Source: an uncultured Ruminococcus sp.
GTDB taxonomy: Bacteria > Bacillota_A > Clostridia > Oscillospirales > Ruminococcaceae
Reading direction: 5' to 3'
NCBI GenBank assembly: GCA_937880065.1
Contig: CALFMA010000298.1
Span: 1-9,771, forward strand
Length of the DNA: 9,771 bases
In this document: piece after piece, positions 127 through 9,039 of the stretch
Layout: each line of letters begins with the position of its first letter
Numbering within the stretch: position 1 is the stretch's first letter
Notes under the pieces: model-generated
Seen by the model: only the letters and a program-made list of their open reading frames with translations
The model's database searches: none
Told to the model about the DNA's origin: nothing
Position numbers and translations under genes: made by a program

Positions 127-1950
127 ATGAAAAACATGAAAAAAATTGCAAGCGTAGTACTTGCTCTTGTAATGGTTTTTGCAATGGCTTCAGTAGCTTT
201 TGCAGCTAACATTACAATTACCGGCGGAGCAACAGGTGCAGAATATGCAGCTTATAAACTCCTTAATGCTACAAACTCAGGTGACAACTATGCTTATACT
301 CTCAATGATAAGTATACAGCAGTTCTTCAGGAAGTTACCGGTGAAGACACACAGGCAGACATCGTAGCTTATATCGAAGGTCTTGATGCAGAGGGTATCA
401 GAGATTTTGCTGATGCGGTTTATGATAAGATCAAGGATATGGCTCCTGACTACACAACTGCTAATGATGCGTTCACAAATGTTGACCAGGGTTACTATCT
501 TATCGCTGAAACAAAAATTGGTGCTGACACTGATGAAGGTTCAGACGACTCAGTTTCACTTGTAATGCTTGACACAGCTGGTCAGGATGACATCCAGGTT
601 AGCACAAAGGAAGATGTTCCCACTGTTGAGAAAAAGGTTCAGGATACAAACGATACAACAGGCGCAACATCAGGCTGGCAGGATTCAGCTGACTATGATA
701 TCGGTGATGCAGTACCTTTTAAGCTTTATGGTACAATGCCTGAGAATCTTGATAAGTACGGTGCATATTATTACCGCTTTAACGATACACTTGATTCGCA
801 GTTTGATAAGCCTACAAATGTTATAATTACAATTAATGGTGAAGTTGATGGTGTAGCAAAAACTACAAAATTGTATTACAAGCCTACAGGTACTCAAACA
901 AGTACTCAAAATGGTATAGTAACAAACTGGTCTTATGAACAGTATACTGATGATACATTTACTAATAAAGAGACTTCTATAGATAAAAATTGTAGCGTTA
1001 AATATGACGGCTCAAAGTTTACAGTTGCTTTTGAAAACATTAAGGCATATGAAGGTGTAGATATAGATACTGTTGTTACAGTTGAATACAAATCTGTTCT
1101 TAATAAGACTGCTGTAGTTGGTAATCCTGGTCAGAAGAATAAGGTGGATTTAACTTATTCAAATAATCCTAACTTCGATTACAAGCCAACAATTAATGAT
1201 GATACATCTGATTCCCCAGGGAATGAGAATACAGGTAAAACACCAGAAGATTTTGTTAATGTTCATACTTATGCGGTCAAGTTAGATAAGAATTTCTTTA
1301 ATGCAGCTGGTAAAGAACTTACACCTGCAGAAGTAACAGAAGATGTTTATGACGATGCAAGGTTTAGTCTTTCTAAGGGTGGTTCTGAACTTTATTTCCT
1401 GCCTTCTACCGATACTGATTATGATTATGTTCTTGCTAAGGAGGGAGAAAAGGTTACAATAGACGGAACAGAATATACTGCAACAAATCGTTTGGAACTT
1501 ACTCTTGAAAGTACTGATCTTGTAATCAGAGTTAAAGGTCTTGATGAAGGTGCGTATACACTTAAGGAAGAAGTAGTTCCTACAGGTTTTAATAAAGCAC
1601 CTGAACAGACAATTACTATTGATGCTGGTACAGTAAACGATCATGGATGGGACGGAACAACCGAAGATGTAACACTTAAGTCATTCACATGGACAGTTTC
1701 TGATGGTACAAATTCATCTACTGTAAATCAGGGCGTAGATGCAGATGGAAATGCTTACAAAGATAAAGATGGAAATCCAATAAGCATTACTGCTGAAGCT
1801 CTGGCAACAATGGAAAACAGACAGGGTACATCCCTCCCCGGCACCGGTGGTATCGGTACAACAATCTTCTATCTTGGCGGTGGAGCAATGGCAGCAATCG
1901 GCGGCATTTACCTCATTTCCAAGAGAAGAATGAGAAAGTCTGAGGAATAA
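127..1950 (+). CDS. Major pilin (SpaA-type backbone), LPGTG-anchored
   Basis: This 607-aa secreted shaft subunit would be polymerised on the cell surface by the class C sortase encoded next. A signal peptide ends near AFA-AN (residues 24-28). The first globular domain contains GYYLIAET at 122-129. VPTVEKKV at 164-171 is the likely lysine-bearing pilin motif, and DIGDAVPF at 191-198 opens a fimbrial isopeptide-forming D2-type domain. A Cna_B-like C-terminal domain starts near VKLDKN (384-389) and carries the E-box-like YTLKEEVVPTG (477-487). The sorting signal is LPGTG at 570-574, then a hydrophobic segment and an RR-rich tail. The start at 127 is set by AGGAAAGGA at 111-119, and M4 is a less well placed alternative. 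The middle of the gene has different isoleucine codon use from its ends. The pilin assignment is firm; which lysine is joined during polymerisation is inferred. Confidence 0.93.
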   Translation: MKNMKKIASVVLALVMVFAMASVAFAANITITGGATGAEYAAYKLLNATNSGDNYAYTLNDKYTAVLQEVTGEDTQADIVAYIEGLDAEGIRDFADAVYDKIKDMAPDYTTANDAFTNVDQGYYLIAETKIGADTDEGSDDSVSLVMLDTAGQDDIQVSTKEDVPTVEKKVQDTNDTTGATSGWQDSADYDIGDAVPFKLYGTMPENLDKYGAYYYRFNDTLDSQFDKPTNVIITINGEVDGVAKTTKLYYKPTGTQTSTQNGIVTNWSYEQYTDDTFTNKETSIDKNCSVKYDGSKFTVAFENIKAYEGVDIDTVVTVEYKSVLNKTAVVGNPGQKNKVDLTYSNNPNFDYKPTINDDTSDSPGNENTGKTPEDFVNVHTYAVKLDKNFFNAAGKELTPAEVTEDVYDDARFSLSKGGSELYFLPSTDTDYDYVLAKEGEKVTIDGTEYTATNRLELTLESTDLVIRVKGLDEGAYTLKEEVVPTGFNKAPEQTITIDAGTVNDHGWDGTTEDVTLKSFTWTVSDGTNSSTVNQGVDADGNAYKDKDGNPISITAEALATMENRQGTSLPGTGGIGTTIFYLGGGAMAAIGGIYLISKRRMRKSEE

Positions 1951-2019
1951 GTTAAAATATAACATTATTAAATCGGAATAGAAAACAAAAACTAACTAAA
2001 GGCTAATTAACCTAATTAT

Positions 2020-2047
2020 GCCGCCGACGGTGAAAGCTGTCGGCGGC
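2020..2047 (+). promoter_or_regulatory. Intercistronic hairpin between major pilin and sortase
   Basis: GCCGCCGAC at 2020-2028 pairs perfectly with GTCGGCGGC at 2039-2047 around a 10-base loop. No T-run follows, and the sortase ribosome binding site (GGGAGG, about 2053-2058) comes immediately after. It is therefore not a classic terminator. It could attenuate or process the mRNA, or protect the upstream 3' end, giving more pilin than sortase message. Confidence 0.7.
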
Positions 2048-2063
2048 CATTAGGGAGGATCCC

Positions 2064-2957
2064 ATGAAAAAAAAGAAAAAAATCAATAAAGCAAGCTTAT
2101 TTACAACAATATTTTTTACATTAATGCTGTTCGTGGGAGTCTCCGTGATGCTTTACCCAATCGTAAGCGATTGGTGGAACTCCAAGGTACAAAGCCGAGC
2201 AGTTGCCAACTATGAAGTGGCAGTTGCCAATATGGACACAAGCAGAACAGACAAAATGATTGAAAAGGCAAATGAGTATAACAAGAAAATTGCTCGACTT
2301 GAAGCACCATTCGTGGATTTCGACAAGGTTTCGGGCTATGACACAACCCTCAATATTTCGGGTACGGGAATTATGGGCTACATTTCAATTCCTGTAATTC
2401 AGGTTGAATTGCCTATCTACCACGGCACAAGTGAAGAAGTTCTGAATATTGCCGCAGGTCATCTCGAGGGTTCATCCCTCCCCGTAGGCGGAGCGAATAC
2501 CCATTCAGTAATATCCGCCCACAGAGGATTGCCCTCAGCACGACTTTTCACCGACCTTGACAAAATCGAAAAAGGCGATGTATTCACAGTCAATATTCTC
2601 GACCGAATTTATACCTATGAGGTTGAAGAAATACTCATTGTAGAGCCTCACGAAATTAACACGCTTTCAATTATCCCCAACAGCGATTATGTAACACTTA
2701 TGACTTGTACTCCCTACGGTATCAACACACACCGTCTGCTGATACGTTCACACCGTATCGAAACCGTGTACAAGAAAGAGTACAGAGTTGTTGCGGAAAT
2801 GGTAAAAATTGACCCTATGCTTGTAATTCCGTTTATCTGTGCACCATTTGTATTCATACTGGTGTGCGTATGGGTATTCGGCGGCAAGCGTAAACCCAGA
2901 CCACCAAGAGAAATTGCCGCACGTCTGATACTGGACGGAAGGGAGGTTGTAAAATGA
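2064..2957 (+). CDS. Class C (pilus-polymerising) sortase
   Basis: This 297-aa membrane transpeptidase would link pilin monomers by cutting at the LPXTG Thr-Gly bond and joining the threonine to a lysine of the next pilin. Transmembrane segments lie near residues 11-33 and 252-272, the two-anchor layout usual for class C. The core matches the family: GIMGYISIP (102-110), LPIYHGT (116-122), catalytic His153 in SAHRGLPSA, catalytic Cys215 in TLMTCTPYG and Arg224 in NTHRLL. The lid region reads LEAPFVDF (79-86), without an exact DP(F/W/Y) motif. AGGGAGGAT directly upstream supports ATG 2064. The stop overlaps the next start as ATGA. Its position between two LPXTG pilins identifies the substrates. 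Confidence 0.95.
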   Translation: MKKKKKINKASLFTTIFFTLMLFVGVSVMLYPIVSDWWNSKVQSRAVANYEVAVANMDTSRTDKMIEKANEYNKKIARLEAPFVDFDKVSGYDTTLNISGTGIMGYISIPVIQVELPIYHGTSEEVLNIAAGHLEGSSLPVGGANTHSVISAHRGLPSARLFTDLDKIEKGDVFTVNILDRIYTYEVEEILIVEPHEINTLSIIPNSDYVTLMTCTPYGINTHRLLIRSHRIETVYKKEYRVVAEMVKIDPMLVIPFICAPFVFILVCVWVFGGKRKPRPPREIAARLILDGREVVK

Positions 2958-4078
2958 CGACAGCAAGAAAAAGAATCGGGGCTGTGCTACTGGTTATAGG
3001 CATGGCAATAATGTTCAGTCTTAGCTGTATGAGTACTGTTGCTTCGGCTAAAACAAAAGGAACGCTGACGCTGATATGCGAATGTAAGGATAAACCTGTA
3101 AAGGGTTTGGAATGGAGTCTTTACCGAATAGGCTCTTTTGACGGGGAAAAAATTATTCTTGAAGGCGAATTTGCAAAGCTGCCTGTTGATATGAGCGACC
3201 TTTCCGCATCGGGACTTGCAGCATCAGCTTCAACCTTGAAAGAATTTGCTTTCGTCTACAAGTATAAAACAACGGATAAAGCAAATTCTAAGAAAGACGG
3301 TTCAGTTGAACTTAAATTTGATGAGGCGGGAGCTTATCTTATAGCCGCACCTGTTTACAAGGACGGAAAGGAAACATTTGTTCCCACTCCTGCAATCTTT
3401 ATTCTTGATCCCGAAAAAGAACCCGAAACTACAATTTACCCAAAAATCAAAAAAGATGCCGTTCTCACAGGTGAAATTCAGCGTTATCAGCTTGTGAAAA
3501 TCTGGGAGAATGACGAAGATCAGCCATTGAAGCCAAATGAAATCGTAGTTGATATTTACCGTGATTTCAAATACTATGAAACGGTAACTCTTTCCGAAGC
3601 CAATAACTGGAGTTATTCATGGGAAGAAGAACATTATTCGGAATGGTCAATGATTGAGCGAAAAATTCCCGAGGGATGCGCTGTTATTTACAGAGAAAAC
3701 GGCAGACAGTATGTTGTGGTTAATACCTATGTTCCCGATTTTGTATTTGATTGGGAATTGAACTTCCCGCCTCCTGTTGTGGAGGAACTGACAACTACAG
3801 TTACAGAGGAAACTACAACTACCACATCATACACAAGTACAATTGACGGCGGAGTTACATCAGAAAGCACATCAACAACTGAAACTTCAACTTCAACAAC
3901 AACAACTACAACCACATCAACTAAAAAAACATCAACAACCAAGCGTACTACAACAAGCAAACTTCCGCAGACAGGACAATTATGGTGGCCTGTACCTGTA
4001 ATGGCAGTTGGCGGACTTGTTCTCATAGCAACGGGAGCAAGAATAATCAGCGGCTCAAAGAGGGACGAAGATGAATAA
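2954..4078 (+). CDS. Minor/basal pilin, LPQTG-anchored, Thr-rich stalk
   Basis: This 374-aa secreted surface protein probably forms the pilus base joined to the cell wall. It has a signal peptide (cleavage near ASA-KT, residues 30-34). An N-terminal pilin domain contains GAYLIAAPV (126-134), and the motif IYPK at 161-164 is the usual position of the pilin-motif lysine. A Cna_B-type domain follows (about 179-260; VKIWEND and NNWSYSW are typical). Then come a Thr/Ser-rich low-complexity wall-spanning stalk (about 279-336), LPQTG at 337-341, a hydrophobic segment and a charged tail. The start overlaps the sortase stop (ATGA) and has GGGAGG upstream. The long Thr/Ser linker and the single Cna_B domain fit a SpaB-like basal subunit better than a tip adhesin, because no adhesin domain is visible. 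The basal role is inferred. Confidence 0.88.
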   Translation: MTTARKRIGAVLLVIGMAIMFSLSCMSTVASAKTKGTLTLICECKDKPVKGLEWSLYRIGSFDGEKIILEGEFAKLPVDMSDLSASGLAASASTLKEFAFVYKYKTTDKANSKKDGSVELKFDEAGAYLIAAPVYKDGKETFVPTPAIFILDPEKEPETTIYPKIKKDAVLTGEIQRYQLVKIWENDEDQPLKPNEIVVDIYRDFKYYETVTLSEANNWSYSWEEEHYSEWSMIERKIPEGCAVIYRENGRQYVVVNTYVPDFVFDWELNFPPPVVEELTTTVTEETTTTTSYTSTIDGGVTSESTSTTETSTSTTTTTTTSTKKTSTTKRTTTSKLPQTGQLWWPVPVMAVGGLVLIATGARIISGSKRDEDE

Positions 4079-4715
4079 AAAACACGGATTAATTTGTGTA
4101 GTGCTTGGGACATTGCTGCTGATAGCGGCAATGTCCCTTGTTTTCTACAACAGGAACGAGAATAAAAAAAGCGGTGAGGCTGCGGAAACGGTTCTTATGG
4201 AGTTGGTGGAGATAATACCTGCACAGCCGCCAACTGAGCCGCCAACGGAAATTCCAACAGCAGGGGATATTCTTGCGGAATATGACATCGAGCCTACAAC
4301 AGTTCCCAAAGAGGAAACTACAGTTGTCATCGCTGAAAACGGCTATATCGGCATTGTGAAAATTCCCGATTTACAGCTTGAATTGCCTGTTATGAGCGAT
4401 TGGAGCTACCCGAAGCTGAATATAGCACCTTGTCGATACAAGGGCAGCGTAGCCGAGGGAGATATTATCATAGCGGCACACAACTATTGGTCACATTTCG
4501 GCAGATTATCGGAACTGGGCGGCGGTGAGATATTCACATTCACCGAGGCTGACGGCACAGTTCACAGGTATGAAATTACTGAGATTATCCAGCTTGACGG
4601 CAGAGATATCGAGGGTATGGATTTCGGTTCTGCGGAGTCATGGGATATGACGCTGTTCACCTGTACTCTCGGCGGTCAGAGCAGAGTTACTGTCCGAGGT
4701 GTTGAAATAGAATAA
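4071..4715 (+). CDS. Small second sortase of the pilus operon
   Basis: This 214-aa single-pass sortase has one N-terminal membrane anchor (about residues 6-26). A Pro/Thr/Glu-rich linker (about 50-85) leads to a compact catalytic domain beginning GYIGIVKIP (91-99). The triad is visible: His137 in IIAAHNYWSHFG, Cys198 in MTLFTCTLGG and Arg205 in SRVTVRG. The domain lacks the C-terminal membrane segment of class C enzymes and does not match the TLMTCTPYG pattern, so it is a different class, closest by eye to class B/D-like sortases. It overlaps the minor pilin by 8 bases, with AGAGGG at 4059-4064 as ribosome binding site. As the last gene of the operon it probably performs cell-wall anchoring of the finished pilus; that role is inferred. 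Confidence 0.88.
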   Translation: MNKKHGLICVVLGTLLLIAAMSLVFYNRNENKKSGEAAETVLMELVEIIPAQPPTEPPTEIPTAGDILAEYDIEPTTVPKEETTVVIAENGYIGIVKIPDLQLELPVMSDWSYPKLNIAPCRYKGSVAEGDIIIAAHNYWSHFGRLSELGGGEIFTFTEADGTVHRYEITEIIQLDGRDIEGMDFGSAESWDMTLFTCTLGGQSRVTVRGVEIE

Positions 4716-4732: not shown

Positions 4733-4776
4733 AAATCCCCCCGTGTCGGAAAATCCGATACGGGGGATTTGATTTT
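4733..4776 (+). terminator. Intrinsic terminator of the pilus operon
   Basis: AAATCCCCCCGTGTCGGA (4733-4750) pairs with TCCGATACGGGGGATTT (4754-4770) apart from one bulged C and one G-T pair, around a 3-base loop. GATTTTG follows. It begins 17 bases after the second sortase stop codon. Confidence 0.85.
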
Positions 4777-4917: not shown

Positions 4918-5742
4918 TTAAATCTTGCGGTTAGTTATATTATTGAGTGCATTTAGATTGTCACTATAGAAAATACTTCTGTATCCCGATGAAGTTCTTT
5001 TCAAATGCATAGCAAGCTTATCGCTTGCAAGTGCGATGAATTCGGAGTTCGTAGGACGGCTTGTGAAATTTTCTGTATTACAGCCGAAAAACTCATTTAT
5101 CGCCGTTTTATCATTTCTGTTCCACGCAATTTCAAGAGCGTGGCGGATTGCTCTTTCGACACGTGCAGATTCTGTCTGATGAATTTCAGCCACACGGGGA
5201 TAGAGCTTTTTTGTAACAGCTTCCAGATATGAGGGGTTTGCCGTACTTTCAAGAATTGCAGTACGCAGGAATTTATACCCTTTAATATGAGCAGGAATGC
5301 CGATATTTCTTATAAGGTTTGTGACTAAAAGCTCAGCATCGTCACATTCATTATTATATTTCTTTACAGCAACAAGCTTGACAGTATTTGCGATTTCATT
5401 ATAATTCAATGGTTTTGACAATACATAAGCCGCACCGTTTTCTATAAGCTGACGGGAAATAAAATCGTTCTCTACCTCAGAAATAACGATAAACTGAGGA
5501 GTACTTGTTCCGTTTGCATTGACCTTACGCATAATCTGTGCAGCATCTGAATGATTGAGCGAAAGGTCTATAATAACTACGTCGGGGCAATCTCTTGCAA
5601 TAGAGTTGAGGATTACTTCTGCGTCTTTTCTTCTTGTATAAGCGTAAATATTATTTTCGTTAAGTTTTGATGCTATACGTATACCATAGTCAGCAGTATC
5701 GTCGCAGACAAGCACCTTTAAAACGGGTTTTTCTCTGTTCAT
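4918..5742 (-). CDS. spo0A: Spo0A-family response regulator
   Basis: This 274-aa cytoplasmic transcription factor has a receiver domain (about 8-125) with the acidic pair D14/D15, phospho-acceptor Asp59 in VVIIDLS, switch residue Ser88 and Lys110 in SKP. The C-terminal Spo0A DNA-binding domain is clear: GIPAHIKGYKFLR (148-160), KLYPRVAEIH (179-188), the recognition-helix region RVERAIRHALEIAW (194-207) and RPTNSEFIALASDKL (229-243). The receiver lacks the usual MPxLDG stretch after the acceptor Asp and is divergent overall. This may therefore be a Spo0A paralogue rather than the master sporulation regulator. A ribosome binding site (AAGGAAGA) precedes ATG 5742. It is convergent with the pilus operon and has its own promoter. 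The DNA-binding family is certain; the regulon is not visible here. Confidence 0.9.
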   Translation of the reverse strand: MNREKPVLKVLVCDDTADYGIRIASKLNENNIYAYTRRKDAEVILNSIARDCPDVVIIDLSLNHSDAAQIMRKVNANGTSTPQFIVISEVENDFISRQLIENGAAYVLSKPLNYNEIANTVKLVAVKKYNNECDDAELLVTNLIRNIGIPAHIKGYKFLRTAILESTANPSYLEAVTKKLYPRVAEIHQTESARVERAIRHALEIAWNRNDKTAINEFFGCNTENFTSRPTNSEFIALASDKLAMHLKRTSSGYRSIFYSDNLNALNNITNRKI

Positions 5743-6082: not shown

Positions 6083-7042
6083 TTATTTTACAATATCTTT
6101 ATTTTTTTCGTGGGGGAGTGTATCGCCAACATTCGGAATTTCCGCATGTACACCGTTTGGCTCTATTTTATCCTTGTCATTCTGGTGGGGGAGTCTGTTT
6201 CCCTTATCATCGGGCTTCTGGTGAGGCGGTACTGCGTTTTCCACAGGTGGAACAGGTGTTTCTTCCAACGTGGGAGGAGTTGGCGGTGCAGCAGGTGCAG
6301 AGGGAGTTACCACAGGCTCATCCTTCGGAGCAGGTGGAACAGGTTTCTCTACAGGCTTTGTTTTTATCGTAGGAACAGGTTTTTCCGCCTTGTCATCATT
6401 GGAAACCGCAGTTGTTATTTCAACTATCGGCTTTTCATGAGGCAGCTTATCCTTTTTATCCTCAATTTTCGGAGGCTTTTTCTCGTCGTGGATATTTACC
6501 TTTATATCGTGCTTGGGAAGTTCCGCTTCAAGCTTTGACTTTATAACTTCAAGATTTTTCTCGCTTTTTCCCTCAACGTAAACATCAACGGTATCACCTG
6601 CTGAAATATAGCCCTCGGAAATTTCCGCCTTTAAGATTTCATTGGCGGCTTCAACATTGTCTTTGCCCTTTATATCGACCTTTTCAATGATTTTTGTGCC
6701 GTAATCGTTATTGCTTTCAATGCTTAGCACCTTGCCCGAACTGTTAAGCGTCATACTTATAGAAGTATCTGATGCAAGGGTAACAGTTGAACATGGTTTC
6801 AGATTTTTGTTATAATACGAATAGCAAGGGATTGAAATTATACCGATACAAGCGGCAGCGGCAACTACAGTTTTGATTATTGTCATAACAGGTTTTCCGT
6901 CCTTGTACTTCTCCGTCATAATCACGGGATTGGTGACAGTTTGTCCTGTTTTGTAATTGAGATTTGCGGCAAAAACGAATTTGCCCTCCTCGTCCATAAG
7001 TACGGAATAGCCTTTAGCACATTGCATTACTATGTATTTCAT
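6083..7042 (-). CDS. rsgI: RsgI-like membrane anti-sigma-I factor
   Basis: This 319-aa single-pass protein is predicted to hold sigma-I inactive at the membrane. The N-terminal cytoplasmic RsgI_N-type domain (about 1-48) includes YSVLMDEEGKFVFA. A transmembrane helix follows at about 53-76. The juxtamembrane extracellular domain (about 83-185) has SISMTLNSSGKVLSIES, aligning without gaps to the RsgI stretch around the autocleaved Asn-Pro bond; here that dipeptide is Asp92-Thr93. The outer tail (about 188-319) is Pro/Lys/Glu-rich, with LPH(E/Q) recurring at 200, 284 and 309, and shows no carbohydrate-binding module. Its ATG shares one base with the sigI stop (TAATG), so the two genes are translationally coupled, as in known sigI-rsgI operons. 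The family call rests on the N-terminal and juxtamembrane domains plus context; the signal sensed is unknown. Confidence 0.85.
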   Translation of the reverse strand: MKYIVMQCAKGYSVLMDEEGKFVFAANLNYKTGQTVTNPVIMTEKYKDGKPVMTIIKTVVAAAACIGIISIPCYSYYNKNLKPCSTVTLASDTSISMTLNSSGKVLSIESNNDYGTKIIEKVDIKGKDNVEAANEILKAEISEGYISAGDTVDVYVEGKSEKNLEVIKSKLEAELPKHDIKVNIHDEKKPPKIEDKKDKLPHEKPIVEITTAVSNDDKAEKPVPTIKTKPVEKPVPPAPKDEPVVTPSAPAAPPTPPTLEETPVPPVENAVPPHQKPDDKGNRLPHQNDKDKIEPNGVHAEIPNVGDTLPHEKNKDIVK

Positions 7043-7764
7043 TAACCCTCACCGCCTTTCAATACCTGCATAATGTGTCCTCTCATAATTTCATAGCCAT
7101 TGGTGCAAATCAACAGAACCGCCACAAGATAGCGTCTGTGTCTTTCGAGTGTTTTTCTTTCAACTCCTGCCCCGTCTGCAAGGGCTGCAAGAGGAACTCT
7201 TTTTGTTCGGAGGAAATCCGCTAAAATCTGTGGATTATTCCTTGCATAGCGGACAGCTTTTCCGCATATTTCAAGAGTTCTCCGCTGCTTAGGGGAATTC
7301 TCGGCAATATCGGTGAAAGAAACACCAAATTCCTCCATTTGTGCCGATAATTCGTCGATTTCCTGCTTTGTAGCTTCACGGATTTCATTTTCGCTGAACT
7401 CATTGCGGCTATCACCGATTGTATCAATAAGTTCGTTTTTATTTTCCTCATCGGGCATATTCAGGGAAATATTGCCCATATTTCGCTTTTCACGACGATA
7501 GTAGTCAATAAGGCGATTTTTTATCTGTAAAGCTGCAAATTTGAGAAATGAGCCACGGAGTTTCGAGTAATTGCAGATAGCCTCGTAAAAGGCAAACATT
7601 GCAATACTCAATTCATCATCGCTCTGTTCGGGGGAGCGATTGATAAATTTCGCCGTTTCCGACTTTATAAACGGCATATAATCAGATATAAGCGCATCTG
7701 ATTCAGATTTATCTTTTTTTGCAAGAGCAACTCTTGCGGCAATCTCATGAGTTTCGGAGTCCAT
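7042..7764 (-). CDS. sigI: RNA polymerase sigma factor SigI
   Basis: This 240-aa alternative sigma-70-family factor has a region 2 block reading ISDYMPFIKS (26-35), DDELSIAMFAFYEAI (49-63), KLRGSFLKFAALQIKNRLID (68-87) and YYRRE, matching SigI proteins. The C-terminal SigI domain (about 158-232) has SPKQRRTLE, RVPLAALADGAGVERKTLER (189-208) and RRYLVAVLLI, the promoter-reading helix-turn-helix. The start at 7764 has GGAGGTG seven bases upstream. It is followed with a one-base overlap by the rsgI-like gene. In known systems SigI drives envelope, heat-stress or cellulosome genes and its own operon. Both a sigma-A promoter and a sigma-I-like promoter stand upstream, implying basal expression plus autoregulation. 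Confidence 0.92.
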   Translation of the reverse strand: MDSETHEIAARVALAKKDKSESDALISDYMPFIKSETAKFINRSPEQSDDELSIAMFAFYEAICNYSKLRGSFLKFAALQIKNRLIDYYRREKRNMGNISLNMPDEENKNELIDTIGDSRNEFSENEIREATKQEIDELSAQMEEFGVSFTDIAENSPKQRRTLEICGKAVRYARNNPQILADFLRTKRVPLAALADGAGVERKTLERHRRYLVAVLLICTNGYEIMRGHIMQVLKGGEG

Positions 7765-7783
7765 TTCTGCACCTCCAGTTATT

Positions 7784-7820
7784 TATAGTATACGTAAGGA
7801 TTTCAAAAAAATCGGGGTAT
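7784..7820 (-). promoter_or_regulatory. Sigma-I-like autoregulatory promoter of sigI-rsgI
   Basis: On the - strand ATACCCC (7820-7814) is followed after 19 bases by CGTA (7794-7791) and TACTATA (7790-7784). The ACCCC -35 and CG-A -10 resemble described sigma-I promoters. The same signature with identical spacing occurs ahead of the divergent secreted-protein gene. It starts transcription about 20-30 bases before the sigI start codon. Confidence 0.6.
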
Positions 7821-7827
7821 TTTCTTT

Positions 7828-7856
7828 ATTATATAATAAAAAAATCTGAAAGTCAA
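7828..7856 (-). promoter_or_regulatory. Sigma-A promoter of sigI-rsgI
   Basis: TTGACT (7856-7851, - strand) and a perfect TATAAT (7833-7828) are separated by 17 bases. It lies just upstream of the sigma-I-like promoter and would supply basal expression of the operon. Confidence 0.78.
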
Positions 7857-7920
7857 TGGATAAATTCTAAAAATAACGAATTTTAAACTTTTTCAAATTT
7901 TTTCAAAAAAATTTTTTCGG

Positions 7921-7957
7921 ATACCCCACTTTTGGGATTTGACCTCCGTAAACTATA
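7921..7957 (+). promoter_or_regulatory. Sigma-I-like promoter of the secreted repeat protein
   Basis: ATACCCC (7921-7927), 19 bases, CGTA (7947-7950), AACTATA (7951-7957). This copies the element ahead of sigI on the other strand. Upstream (about 7885-7917) are A- and T-runs of 5-7 bases, as expected for an UP-like or bent region. A TTGACC at 7939-7944 lacks a good -10 partner, so a sigma-A reading is weaker. Confidence 0.6.
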
Positions 7958-8112
7958 GACATAAGGACACGGAAAGCAGATGAAACCTCGAGGCATCAGT
8001 TAAGCCGTAGAATTTATCGTTAATAAAGGGTACTCTAAAAAACGGAACACGAGTAGAATCAAGCCGTGAGGAGTTTTTTAGAGGTTCCCATAAGATTTAA
8101 GGAGTGTTTATT
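7958..8112 (+). promoter_or_regulatory. Structured 5' leader of the secreted-protein gene (unidentified RNA)
   Basis: About 150 transcribed bases precede the start codon. Two units of the form ACGGAA ... AAGCCGT occur (7969-8008 and 8042-8067), and in each ACGG can pair with CCGT. In unit 1 GATG/CATC can pair inside around CCTCGAGG. Unit 2 lies within the perfect 11-bp stem CTCTAAAAAAC (8033-8043)/GTTTTTTAGAG (8073-8083), so its pairing partly competes with that stem. The ribosome binding site AAGGAG (8099-8104) follows closely. I could not match it to a riboswitch class I know. Together with the promoters, this accounts for the 348-bp gap at 7765-8112. Confidence 0.45.
8028..8089. repeat. 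62-bp imperfect palindrome with GGG..CTCTAAAAA ends
   Basis: The left end GGGTACTCTAAAAAAC (8028-8043) and the inverted right end, read as GGGAACCTCTAAAAAAC (8089-8073), match apart from a one-base gap and one difference. GGGCATCTCTAAAAA also occurs once at 4721-4735, directly after the second sortase. The ends resemble short terminal inverted repeats, so this could be a small non-coding mobile element remnant. It could equally be purely an RNA hairpin. Confidence 0.45.
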
Positions 8113-9039
8113 ATGAATTACAAGAAGATTACAGCCGCAATTACAGCTATTTGCTTACTTTCAGTTGCTACAGGCGCAACAGCTCTCGCTGCAAAGAATA
8201 TCGCAGCAGATACAGCTGAGGACAGCGTAGTAACAGAGGAAACAACTGAGGCTACAGAGGAAACTACAGAAGAAGCTGCTGACGAAGAAGCAGCTGAGGA
8301 CGAGGAAGCTACAGATGCTCCCGAAGTTGAAGCTCCCGAAGCTGAGAAGCCTGTTAAGCCTGCACCTCCTGTAATTGAGGATGAAGAAATCACAGAGGGC
8401 GAAGAAGTTGAGGAAGACACAGAGAAGCCCGAAAAGCCTGAAAAGCCTGCTAAGCCTGCAAAGAAGGCTGGCAAGAAGGAAATCGTAGAGATGATCAATG
8501 TAACATTTGATCTTGAAACTGCTGATTTCGTTGACGAAGACGCTAAGGCTGCTTGGTTTGAGTTCTGCCTCAACAACCTTGAAGATGCTGCTCCAAAGGC
8601 TGATAAGCCCGCAGCTGACAAGGACGCTGATAAGCCTGTAAAGGTTAAGACAGACAAGAAGGCTATTATCGAGAAAATCAACGAAACATTTGACCTCGAA
8701 GCTTGCAGCTTCATTGATGATGATGCAAAGACAGCTTGGTTTGAATACTGCACAATTCTCAACACAAAGCCTGAAAAGCCTACTGCTCCTGCACCTGAGG
8801 TTGACGAGAACGGCAACGTAATTAAGCCTGAGCCTCCTACACCTCCCACACCTGAGCTTGACGAAAACGGCAGCGTAATCGATTCCATGACCACCTCAGA
8901 AACATGGACCGGAATGTGGCACCGTAACTACTGCGAACTGGATATCCCCCGGATCCCCACGACTCCCGGCAGCTACACGGTCACCGTTTACTTCAACGGC
9001 GCGCTGGCAGCCGATGTTCCCTTTACTGTCGTGGAGTAA
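8113..9039 (+). CDS. Secreted acidic/Pro-rich protein with two unknown repeats; C-terminus doubtful
   Basis: I do not recognise this 308-aa protein. A signal peptide (about 1-26, ending ALA-A) leads to a Glu/Thr/Ala-rich acidic segment (about 35-68) and a Pro/Lys/Glu linker (about 70-120). A ~32-residue repeat appears twice (121-152 and 182-213; 21 of 32 identical), each holding TFDLE, DAK and AWFE(F/Y)C. A Pro-rich stretch follows with PE(V/L)DENG(N/S)VI twice. The last ~50 residues, including PGSYTVTVYFNG, resemble the end of an Ig-like secreted domain and are encoded in a different codon style. The start is ATG 8113, eight bases after AAGGAG; a GTG in frame at 8104 lies inside that site. 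No LPXTG or membrane anchor is present. It is likely under sigma-I control. Existence and export are well supported; function is unknown. Confidence 0.75.
   Translation: MNYKKITAAITAICLLSVATGATALAAKNIAADTAEDSVVTEETTEATEETTEEAADEEAAEDEEATDAPEVEAPEAEKPVKPAPPVIEDEEITEGEEVEEDTEKPEKPEKPAKPAKKAGKKEIVEMINVTFDLETADFVDEDAKAAWFEFCLNNLEDAAPKADKPAADKDADKPVKVKTDKKAIIEKINETFDLEACSFIDDDAKTAWFEYCTILNTKPEKPTAPAPEVDENGNVIKPEPPTPPTPELDENGSVIDSMTTSETWTGMWHRNYCELDIPRIPTTPGSYTVTVYFNGALAADVPFTVVE
8473..8751 (+). repeat. Two coding copies of a ~96-bp (32-aa) repeat
   Basis: Copies lie at 8473-8568 and 8656-8751, 183 bp apart. They encode the paired KKxI(V/I)ExIN ... AWFE(F/Y)C units of the secreted protein. Twenty-one of 32 residues are identical and most other positions are conservative. 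The Lys/Ala/Asp/Pro-rich spacer between them is not repeated. Confidence 0.8.
8878..8895. other. Abrupt composition/codon boundary inside a reading frame
   Basis: Before about 8885, threonine codons of this gene are almost all ACA with a few ACT and no ACC or ACG. After it they are 4 ACC, 2 ACG, 2 ACT and 1 ACA. Bases 8941-9000 contain 37 G or C of 60. The GNAT and tsaD genes downstream share the GC-rich style. Either a horizontal-transfer or recombination edge, or a join of two genomes in assembly, lies here. Confidence 0.6.

Follow-up and report, generated by a model that had tools for sequence, protein, structure and literature searches.

SigI is known to serve wall homeostasis in Bacillus and to control the cellulosome in Clostridium. 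Bacillus subtilis has a single SigI-RsgI pair with an ACCCC -35 box and with mreBH and lytE as targets, and the disordered extracellular region of its RsgI has been postulated to sense the wall (PMC10128001, which, like the other sources, is cited from excerpts). In Clostridium thermocellum, where about eight SigI factors serve cellulosome control, the sigI-rsgI operon is autoregulated and the promoters combine a C-rich -35 box, an A/T tract and a CGWA box (excerpts of PMC4711584 and PMC6056542). These two sources and PMC10575876, also in excerpt, give the sigma-I consensus as ACCCCC--AA-N15-CGAA in Bacillales and as C-----AAA-N13-14-CGWA in C. thermocellum, whose SigI3 uses CGTA.

The locus described here lies on a Ruminococcus-type contig, of which we analysed one stretch of 9,771 nucleotides (hereafter the window). 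It shares the ACCCC -35 box and, judged by the 15 relatives' genomes tested, the single pair with B. subtilis, and the promoter parts, including the CGTA of SigI3, and a putatively autoregulated sigI-rsgI operon with C. thermocellum. Autoregulation together with a membrane anti-sigma factor from the same operon is also the arrangement of ECF sigma factors that control themselves and a neighbour (excerpt of PMC6056542), from which SigI differs in having a C-terminal domain that reads the -35 region through both grooves (excerpt of PMC10575876). Unlike in C. thermocellum, the target is a Pro-rich secreted protein and no cellulase, and the tract is mostly TTTT. Two promoter-like elements in the window very probably drive a sigma-I circuit that is nearly private, made up of sigI-rsgI and one conserved gene for a Pro/Glu-rich protein predicted to be secreted. 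A literature search on SigI/RsgI and on Ruminococcus sigma factors, covering mainly titles and the beginnings of abstracts, found no description of such a circuit. It would join one SigI and two promoters to a single conserved output throughout a lineage of gut bacteria that degrade fibre and include cultured members (R. flavefaciens).

SigI and RsgI of the window

The sigI gene (7042-7764, minus strand) encodes a sigma-I factor of 240 aa that matches NCBIfam SigI models with E-values down to 1.7e-55 (TIGR02895, 7.5e-49), all of these matches being below the curated cut-offs. Its membership of the family is indicated by a Sigma70_r2 match (1e-07) together with alignment of the SigI C-terminal domain, and residues 18-232 match the solved structures of SigI1 (9.5e-21) and SigI6 (2.4e-20). 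Relatives were collected by searching genome contigs with the window SigI, and the best 80 of 119 loci were used. The nearest among these 80 is a goat-rectum Ruminococcus MAG (L001), whose SigI is 97% identical. A search for viral copies of sigI found none.

In C. thermocellum SigI6, replacement of H171, the minor-groove histidine of the helix that reads the -35 region, by Asn, Ser, Ala, Tyr or Phe abolishes activity (excerpt of PMC10575876). This histidine is absent here: the equivalent position, residue 160 in the window protein, is Gln in 80 of 81 SigI of the group (the window and the best 80 of 119 loci) and in all 15 SigI from sister lineages.

Directly after sigI comes an rsgI-like anti-sigma gene (6083-7042, minus strand; 319 aa), which matches RsgI_M at residues 93-198 (1.5e-12). 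The protein is laid out as an N-terminal part, a hydrophobic segment, an RsgI_M ectodomain and a Pro-rich tail, and a homologue directly follows sigI in all 80 loci (best 80 of 119). A Pfam search at 0.001 found no RsgI_N match in the window RsgI, which counts against the circuit proposed below, and this domain gave weak matches (0.0004 and 0.0084) in two sister-lineage RsgIs. A Pfam search also detected no carbohydrate-binding module in the window RsgI, unlike in C. thermocellum.

Self-cleaving (SEAL-type) RsgI ectodomains are cut at an Asn-Pro site. No Asn-Pro was found near the aligned self-cleavage position in any of 81 Ruminococcus-type RsgI (the window and the best 80 of 119 loci), unlike in B. 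subtilis; in the window protein the position (residues ~86-97) is occupied by Asp-Thr. INPQ is present in six sister-lineage RsgI ORFs, and NPQ/NPE forms occur in sister lineages. The missing motif in 81 of 81 argues for a non-standard relay. According to an excerpt of PMC12203970, RsgI8 of C. thermocellum does not cleave itself, and what initiates the process there is unknown.

Two divergent promoter elements fit the sigma-I type

A sequence-only reading had placed an ATACCCC-N19-CGTA-WACTATA element ahead of sigI and another ahead of the divergent gene, and direct reading and pattern search confirmed both coordinates exactly. The sigI-rsgI element (7820-7784, minus strand; ATACCCC-N19-CGTA-TACTATA) consists of ATACCCC at 7820-7814, a T run at 7811-7805, CGTA at 7794-7791 and TACTATA at 7790-7784. 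That of the secreted-protein gene (7921-7957, plus strand; ATACCCC-N19-CGTA-AACTATA) consists of ATACCCC at 7921-7927, TTTT at 7930-7933, CGTA at 7947-7950 and AACTATA at 7951-7957. The two point away from each other, lie within 100 bp and are identical at 17 of 18 motif bases. The core ATACCCC-N18-20-CGTA occurs twice in the 9,771 bases of the window vs. a mean of 0.01 in 200 dinucleotide-preserving shuffles, none of which (0/200) held two matches.

The same reading had likened ACCCC and CG-A to known sigma-I elements, and the boxes and their spacing do fit published sigma-I promoters. The C-rich -35 box (ACCCC in Bacillales, consensus from the excerpted PMC4711584) is present as ATACCCC in both window elements, and the CGWA -10 box is CGTA in both and in 125 of 126 aligned sites from relatives. 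The spacer between them is 19 nt in 118 of these sites and 20 nt in the other 8. The spacers of the window pair had been thought to share little except TTTT; they are indeed unrelated apart from the tract, but the tract itself belongs to the motif, TTT standing near the spacer start in all 60 aligned target-gene sites and in 59 of 66 sigI sites. In both window elements the TTT ends 13-14 nt before CGTA, so that the TTTT set aside at first occupies the A-tract position of the published consensus, with opposite polarity (TTT in 119 of the 126 sites). Three sigI sites (L002, L006, L060) have AAA instead. A strict coupling between the Gln of SigI and the T tract was considered and rejected, as Gln also occurs with AAA tracts in a wider draw (L223, L232, L241, L242) that covers 24 of 58 loci. 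The logo of the 66 sigI sites further shows CT two bases past CGTA. As judged from these features, the window pair is probably a conserved pair of sigma-I promoters.

Following the numbering used for SigI in PMC10575876 (in excerpt), which places the start 11 nt past the A of CGTA, transcription is predicted to begin at 7780 for sigI and at 7961 for the target gene. Upstream of the sigma-I site of sigI lies a sigma-A-like promoter, TTGACT-N17-TATAAT (7856-7828, minus strand; 11 of 12 consensus bases), which likely gives basal expression of sigI-rsgI. Matches of at least 9/12 within 200 nt of sigI are found in 56 of 77 relatives (best 80 of 119 loci) vs. about 15 in mononucleotide shuffles.

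Sigma factors of other groups exist in these genomes (as partial matches), and the elements could in principle be promoters of such a factor beside sigI, or operators of another DNA-binding protein. We consider this very improbable, given the fit of boxes and spacing to published sigma-I promoters, the fixed placement ahead of sigI (in 64 of 66 sites, 24-33 nt separate the end of CGTA from the start codon) and the recurrence of the pair with sigI in sister lineages.

The site follows the target gene among relatives

Among the best 80 of 119 loci, 77 have at least 100 nt upstream of sigI, and 65 of these 77 contain ACCCC-N18-20-CGWA in that region. The 12 that deviate from the exact core count against the circuit; ten are one base off by script, one (L004) is one base off by eye and one (L074) is two off. 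Among them are L001, which reads ACACC, and five loci that keep ACCCC and have CGCA as the second box. Thirteen loci also gave reverse-strand matches at positions -5 to -8 relative to sigI; these consist of a ribosome-binding GGGGGT and a palindromic TACGTA and were discarded as promoters.

Homologues of the target gene were sought with tblastn (E 1e-4) in the same loci, and 61 of 63 matches were kept as linked target genes, the two in L051 and L063 being dropped since they fall inside rsgI. The element stands ahead of 60 of the 61, in strict form in 58; the exception, L054, has ACCCA at that spot. Random 320-nt segments gave 392 relaxed and 282 strict matches in 20000, a control that is inflated because the loci themselves contain true sites.

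The gene is divergent from sigI, as in the window, in 9 of the 61 loci; in 51 it is downstream on the sigI strand, mostly behind rsgI with its site retained, and in one (L011) it is elsewhere on the contig. The earlier proposal that sigma-I autoregulates and drives its divergent neighbour is thus supported by comparison for the two promoters (65/77 and 60/61) and needs correction for the geometry, adjacency being unneeded and divergence a minority arrangement. The pairing is independent of adjacency, as the target gene occupies several places and carries its site in each. The gene is a clean natural case of varied positions with a sigma-factor promoter always retained.

A probably nearly private regulon

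We scanned 80 whole genomes (best 80 of 119 relatives) with the strict pattern ACCCC-NN-TTT-N13-15-CGTA-NN-CT, using the same pattern reversed as a control. The scan returned 137 sites (36 + 86 + 15), with at least one in 77 of the 80 genomes, vs. none for the reversed pattern across the same 80. Sorting placed 58 ahead of sigI, 72 ahead of the target family, two just past rsgI at contig ends and five elsewhere (G011, G027, G038, G041, G059), the last five counting against the circuit. Thus 130 of 137 precede one of the two genes, and the random scatter of the motif that had been named as a refuting outcome was not seen in these relatives. Within the fetched loci the sites number 56 at sigI, 58 at the target gene and two right after rsgI where the contig stops. 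The 21 outside the fetched loci comprise 14 at target homologues, two at sigI copies on contig ends (G080 and G029, the latter recognised because it is identical to the beginning of L022) and the five elsewhere. These 14 homologues lie on contigs other than that of sigI, all have the site, and all were confirmed by blastx against the linked family (E about 4.8e-40 or better).

With 17 of 18 motif bases common to two sites within 100 bp, the second site might look like a recent, functionless local duplication of the sigI promoter. This is hardly credible, since the two spacers show no relation outside the tract and the site is kept at 60 of 61 linked and at 14 unlinked target homologues, a footprint with which such a duplication is not viable.

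Each of the 15 genomes tested encodes a single full-length SigI (E 5e-44 or better), unlike the multiple factors of C. thermocellum, and the next-best matches are partial and reach 2.7e-10 or weaker. The same 15 of 15 held for the RsgI_M protein, which scored above the cut-off in 14. SigI of this group is therefore likely a nearly private sigma factor that serves itself and one secreted protein: the placement of 130 of 137 sites and the single SigI and single RsgI match the picture expected of one, and dozens of related species have the same pair, whatever the position of the target. The group thereby gains a simple promoter consensus and a named sole conserved output.

A wider regulon, in which the promoters are real and weaker or A-tract sites missed by the strict pattern drive further envelope genes, is rather unlikely, though several sites point that way. 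Three R. flavefaciens genomes (L115, L116, L117) share an A-tract/CGAA site (ACCCCRTAAAT...TTACGAATACTA) that is followed after 16-17 nt by a membrane-protein-like gene of 227 aa, G059 (L124 / L155) has a second divergent pair between a VTC-like gene and a gene that is dockerin-like by eye, and the AAA tract of the three sigI sites mentioned above agrees with such variants. Against it, relaxed scanning of 14 genomes placed 19 of its 26 matches at sigI or the target; the seven in other places, which also count against a nearly private circuit, compare with 10 for the reversed control, and VTC genes have such a site in one of 16 genomes.

Sister lineages carry the site ahead of a sensor-family lipoprotein

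Reaching deeper, we scanned 197 genomes from this family and found 37 sites, spread over 25 of the genomes, vs. 8 for the reversed control; the 35 sites outside reference genome G013 were opened. Eight are upstream of sigI, 20 head a lipoprotein gene by automatic assignment, one more (L150) does so by eye and six are elsewhere; 29 of 35 thus head sigI or a lipoprotein gene of the NPE type. RsgI_M was above the Pfam cut-off in all seven lipoproteins scanned, four of which also have PepSY. From these sites ahead of lipoproteins carrying RsgI_M, it appears that sister-lineage SigI drives a lipoprotein made from the ectodomain family of its own sensor, which suggests that the target may be a sensor mimic. 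The lipoprotein tails, with DSGYD repeats, resemble the RsgI tail of the same genome in L138, L141 and L147. In L139 and L140 the tails are unlike, RsgI ending in Asp runs that the lipoprotein lacks, and this counts against a mimic.

In several sister lineages the lipoprotein gene is followed by a gene that we take to encode VTC. Sigma-I control of VTC as a general target was rejected on the one site near VTC among 16 Ruminococcus genomes.

The target protein and its leader

The target gene (8113-9039, plus strand) encodes a protein with a signal-like N-terminus, low-complexity stretches, acidic and Pro-rich, and a pair of 35-residue modules that resemble each other. The protein has no Pfam, NCBIfam or PADLOC family at 0.001, unlike the B. 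subtilis targets (excerpt of PMC10128001), and RsgI_M in particular was not found in it (Pfam, 0.001). Its AlphaFold2 model (mean pLDDT 59.7) contains two confident helical modules, the rest being mostly of low confidence, and none of 18 PDB fold matches had E <0.001; the want of a known family or fold counts against the proposed circuit.

Like the RsgI tail, the protein is rich in Pro, Glu, Ala and Lys, with a median Pro content of 14% in the target, 25% in the RsgI tail and 3% in SigI. Across 61 pairs, the tail composition of an RsgI is closer to that of its own target than in random pairings (0/5000 permutations, kinship ignored), a result to which we give little weight because species relatedness is uncontrolled.

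The predicted 152-nt leader of the target mRNA (7961-8112, plus strand) contains a long stem-loop, CTCTAAAAAAC...GTTTTTTAGAG. The fold of 7958-8115 has -38.9 kcal/mol (z -4.3), and none of 200 shuffles was equally good. No Rfam riboswitch family reached its gathering score in the leader; the sole Rfam match to the region, on the opposite strand with E 0.22, was set aside as chance-like. The leaders of 60 target homologues vary in length. Many are short, with a stem-loop at the extreme 5′ end, and many of these short leaders have a CUCC...GGAG hairpin ahead of a GGAG ribosome-binding site.

DNA similarity of the window to L001 ends at 8880, and past this joint GC climbs from ~0.45 to 0.53. The last ~52 residues of the window protein differ from those of three close homologues (L001, P0002, P0003), which share the ending GPHHKDEVQEDSD...TVTEEVTE that the window protein is without. 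The joint at 8880/8881 interrupts the target gene within its repeats, away from both promoters, and likely reflects a chimeric assembly or recombination at these repeats.

A proposed circuit

Beyond the assignment of the promoters, the steps proposed here are inferred from known families. Basal SigI and RsgI would come from the sigma-A-like promoter, and RsgI would keep SigI at the membrane. An envelope signal acting on the RsgI ectodomain would lead to proteolysis of RsgI, and the released SigI would fire both promoters. The product of the target gene may then act at the surface site that RsgI senses and so close the loop, a less certain step proposed because the product resembles the extracellular part of the sensor, through its Pro-rich tail here and the RsgI_M lipoprotein in sister lineages. 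More tentatively, this resemblance raises the possibility, doubtful as it stands, that the product, a disordered Pro-rich secreted protein in Ruminococcus and an RsgI_M lipoprotein in sister lineages, is a mimic of the extracellular part of RsgI that competes with it extracellularly for either the signal or the protease and thereby shuts the loop. If true, the feedback would run through the cell surface; as sensor-mimic feedback it becomes testable.

Other features of the window

The window also has a Spo0A-like gene (4918-5742, minus strand; Spo0A_C, 2.7e-36), which is matched twice in L001, at 96% and 82% DNA identity, flanking the sigI region of that locus. A pilin-like operon at 127-4715 on the plus strand encodes a fimbrial backbone protein, a class C sortase, a surface protein and a second sortase-like product, and is followed by a hairpin at ~4738-4767.
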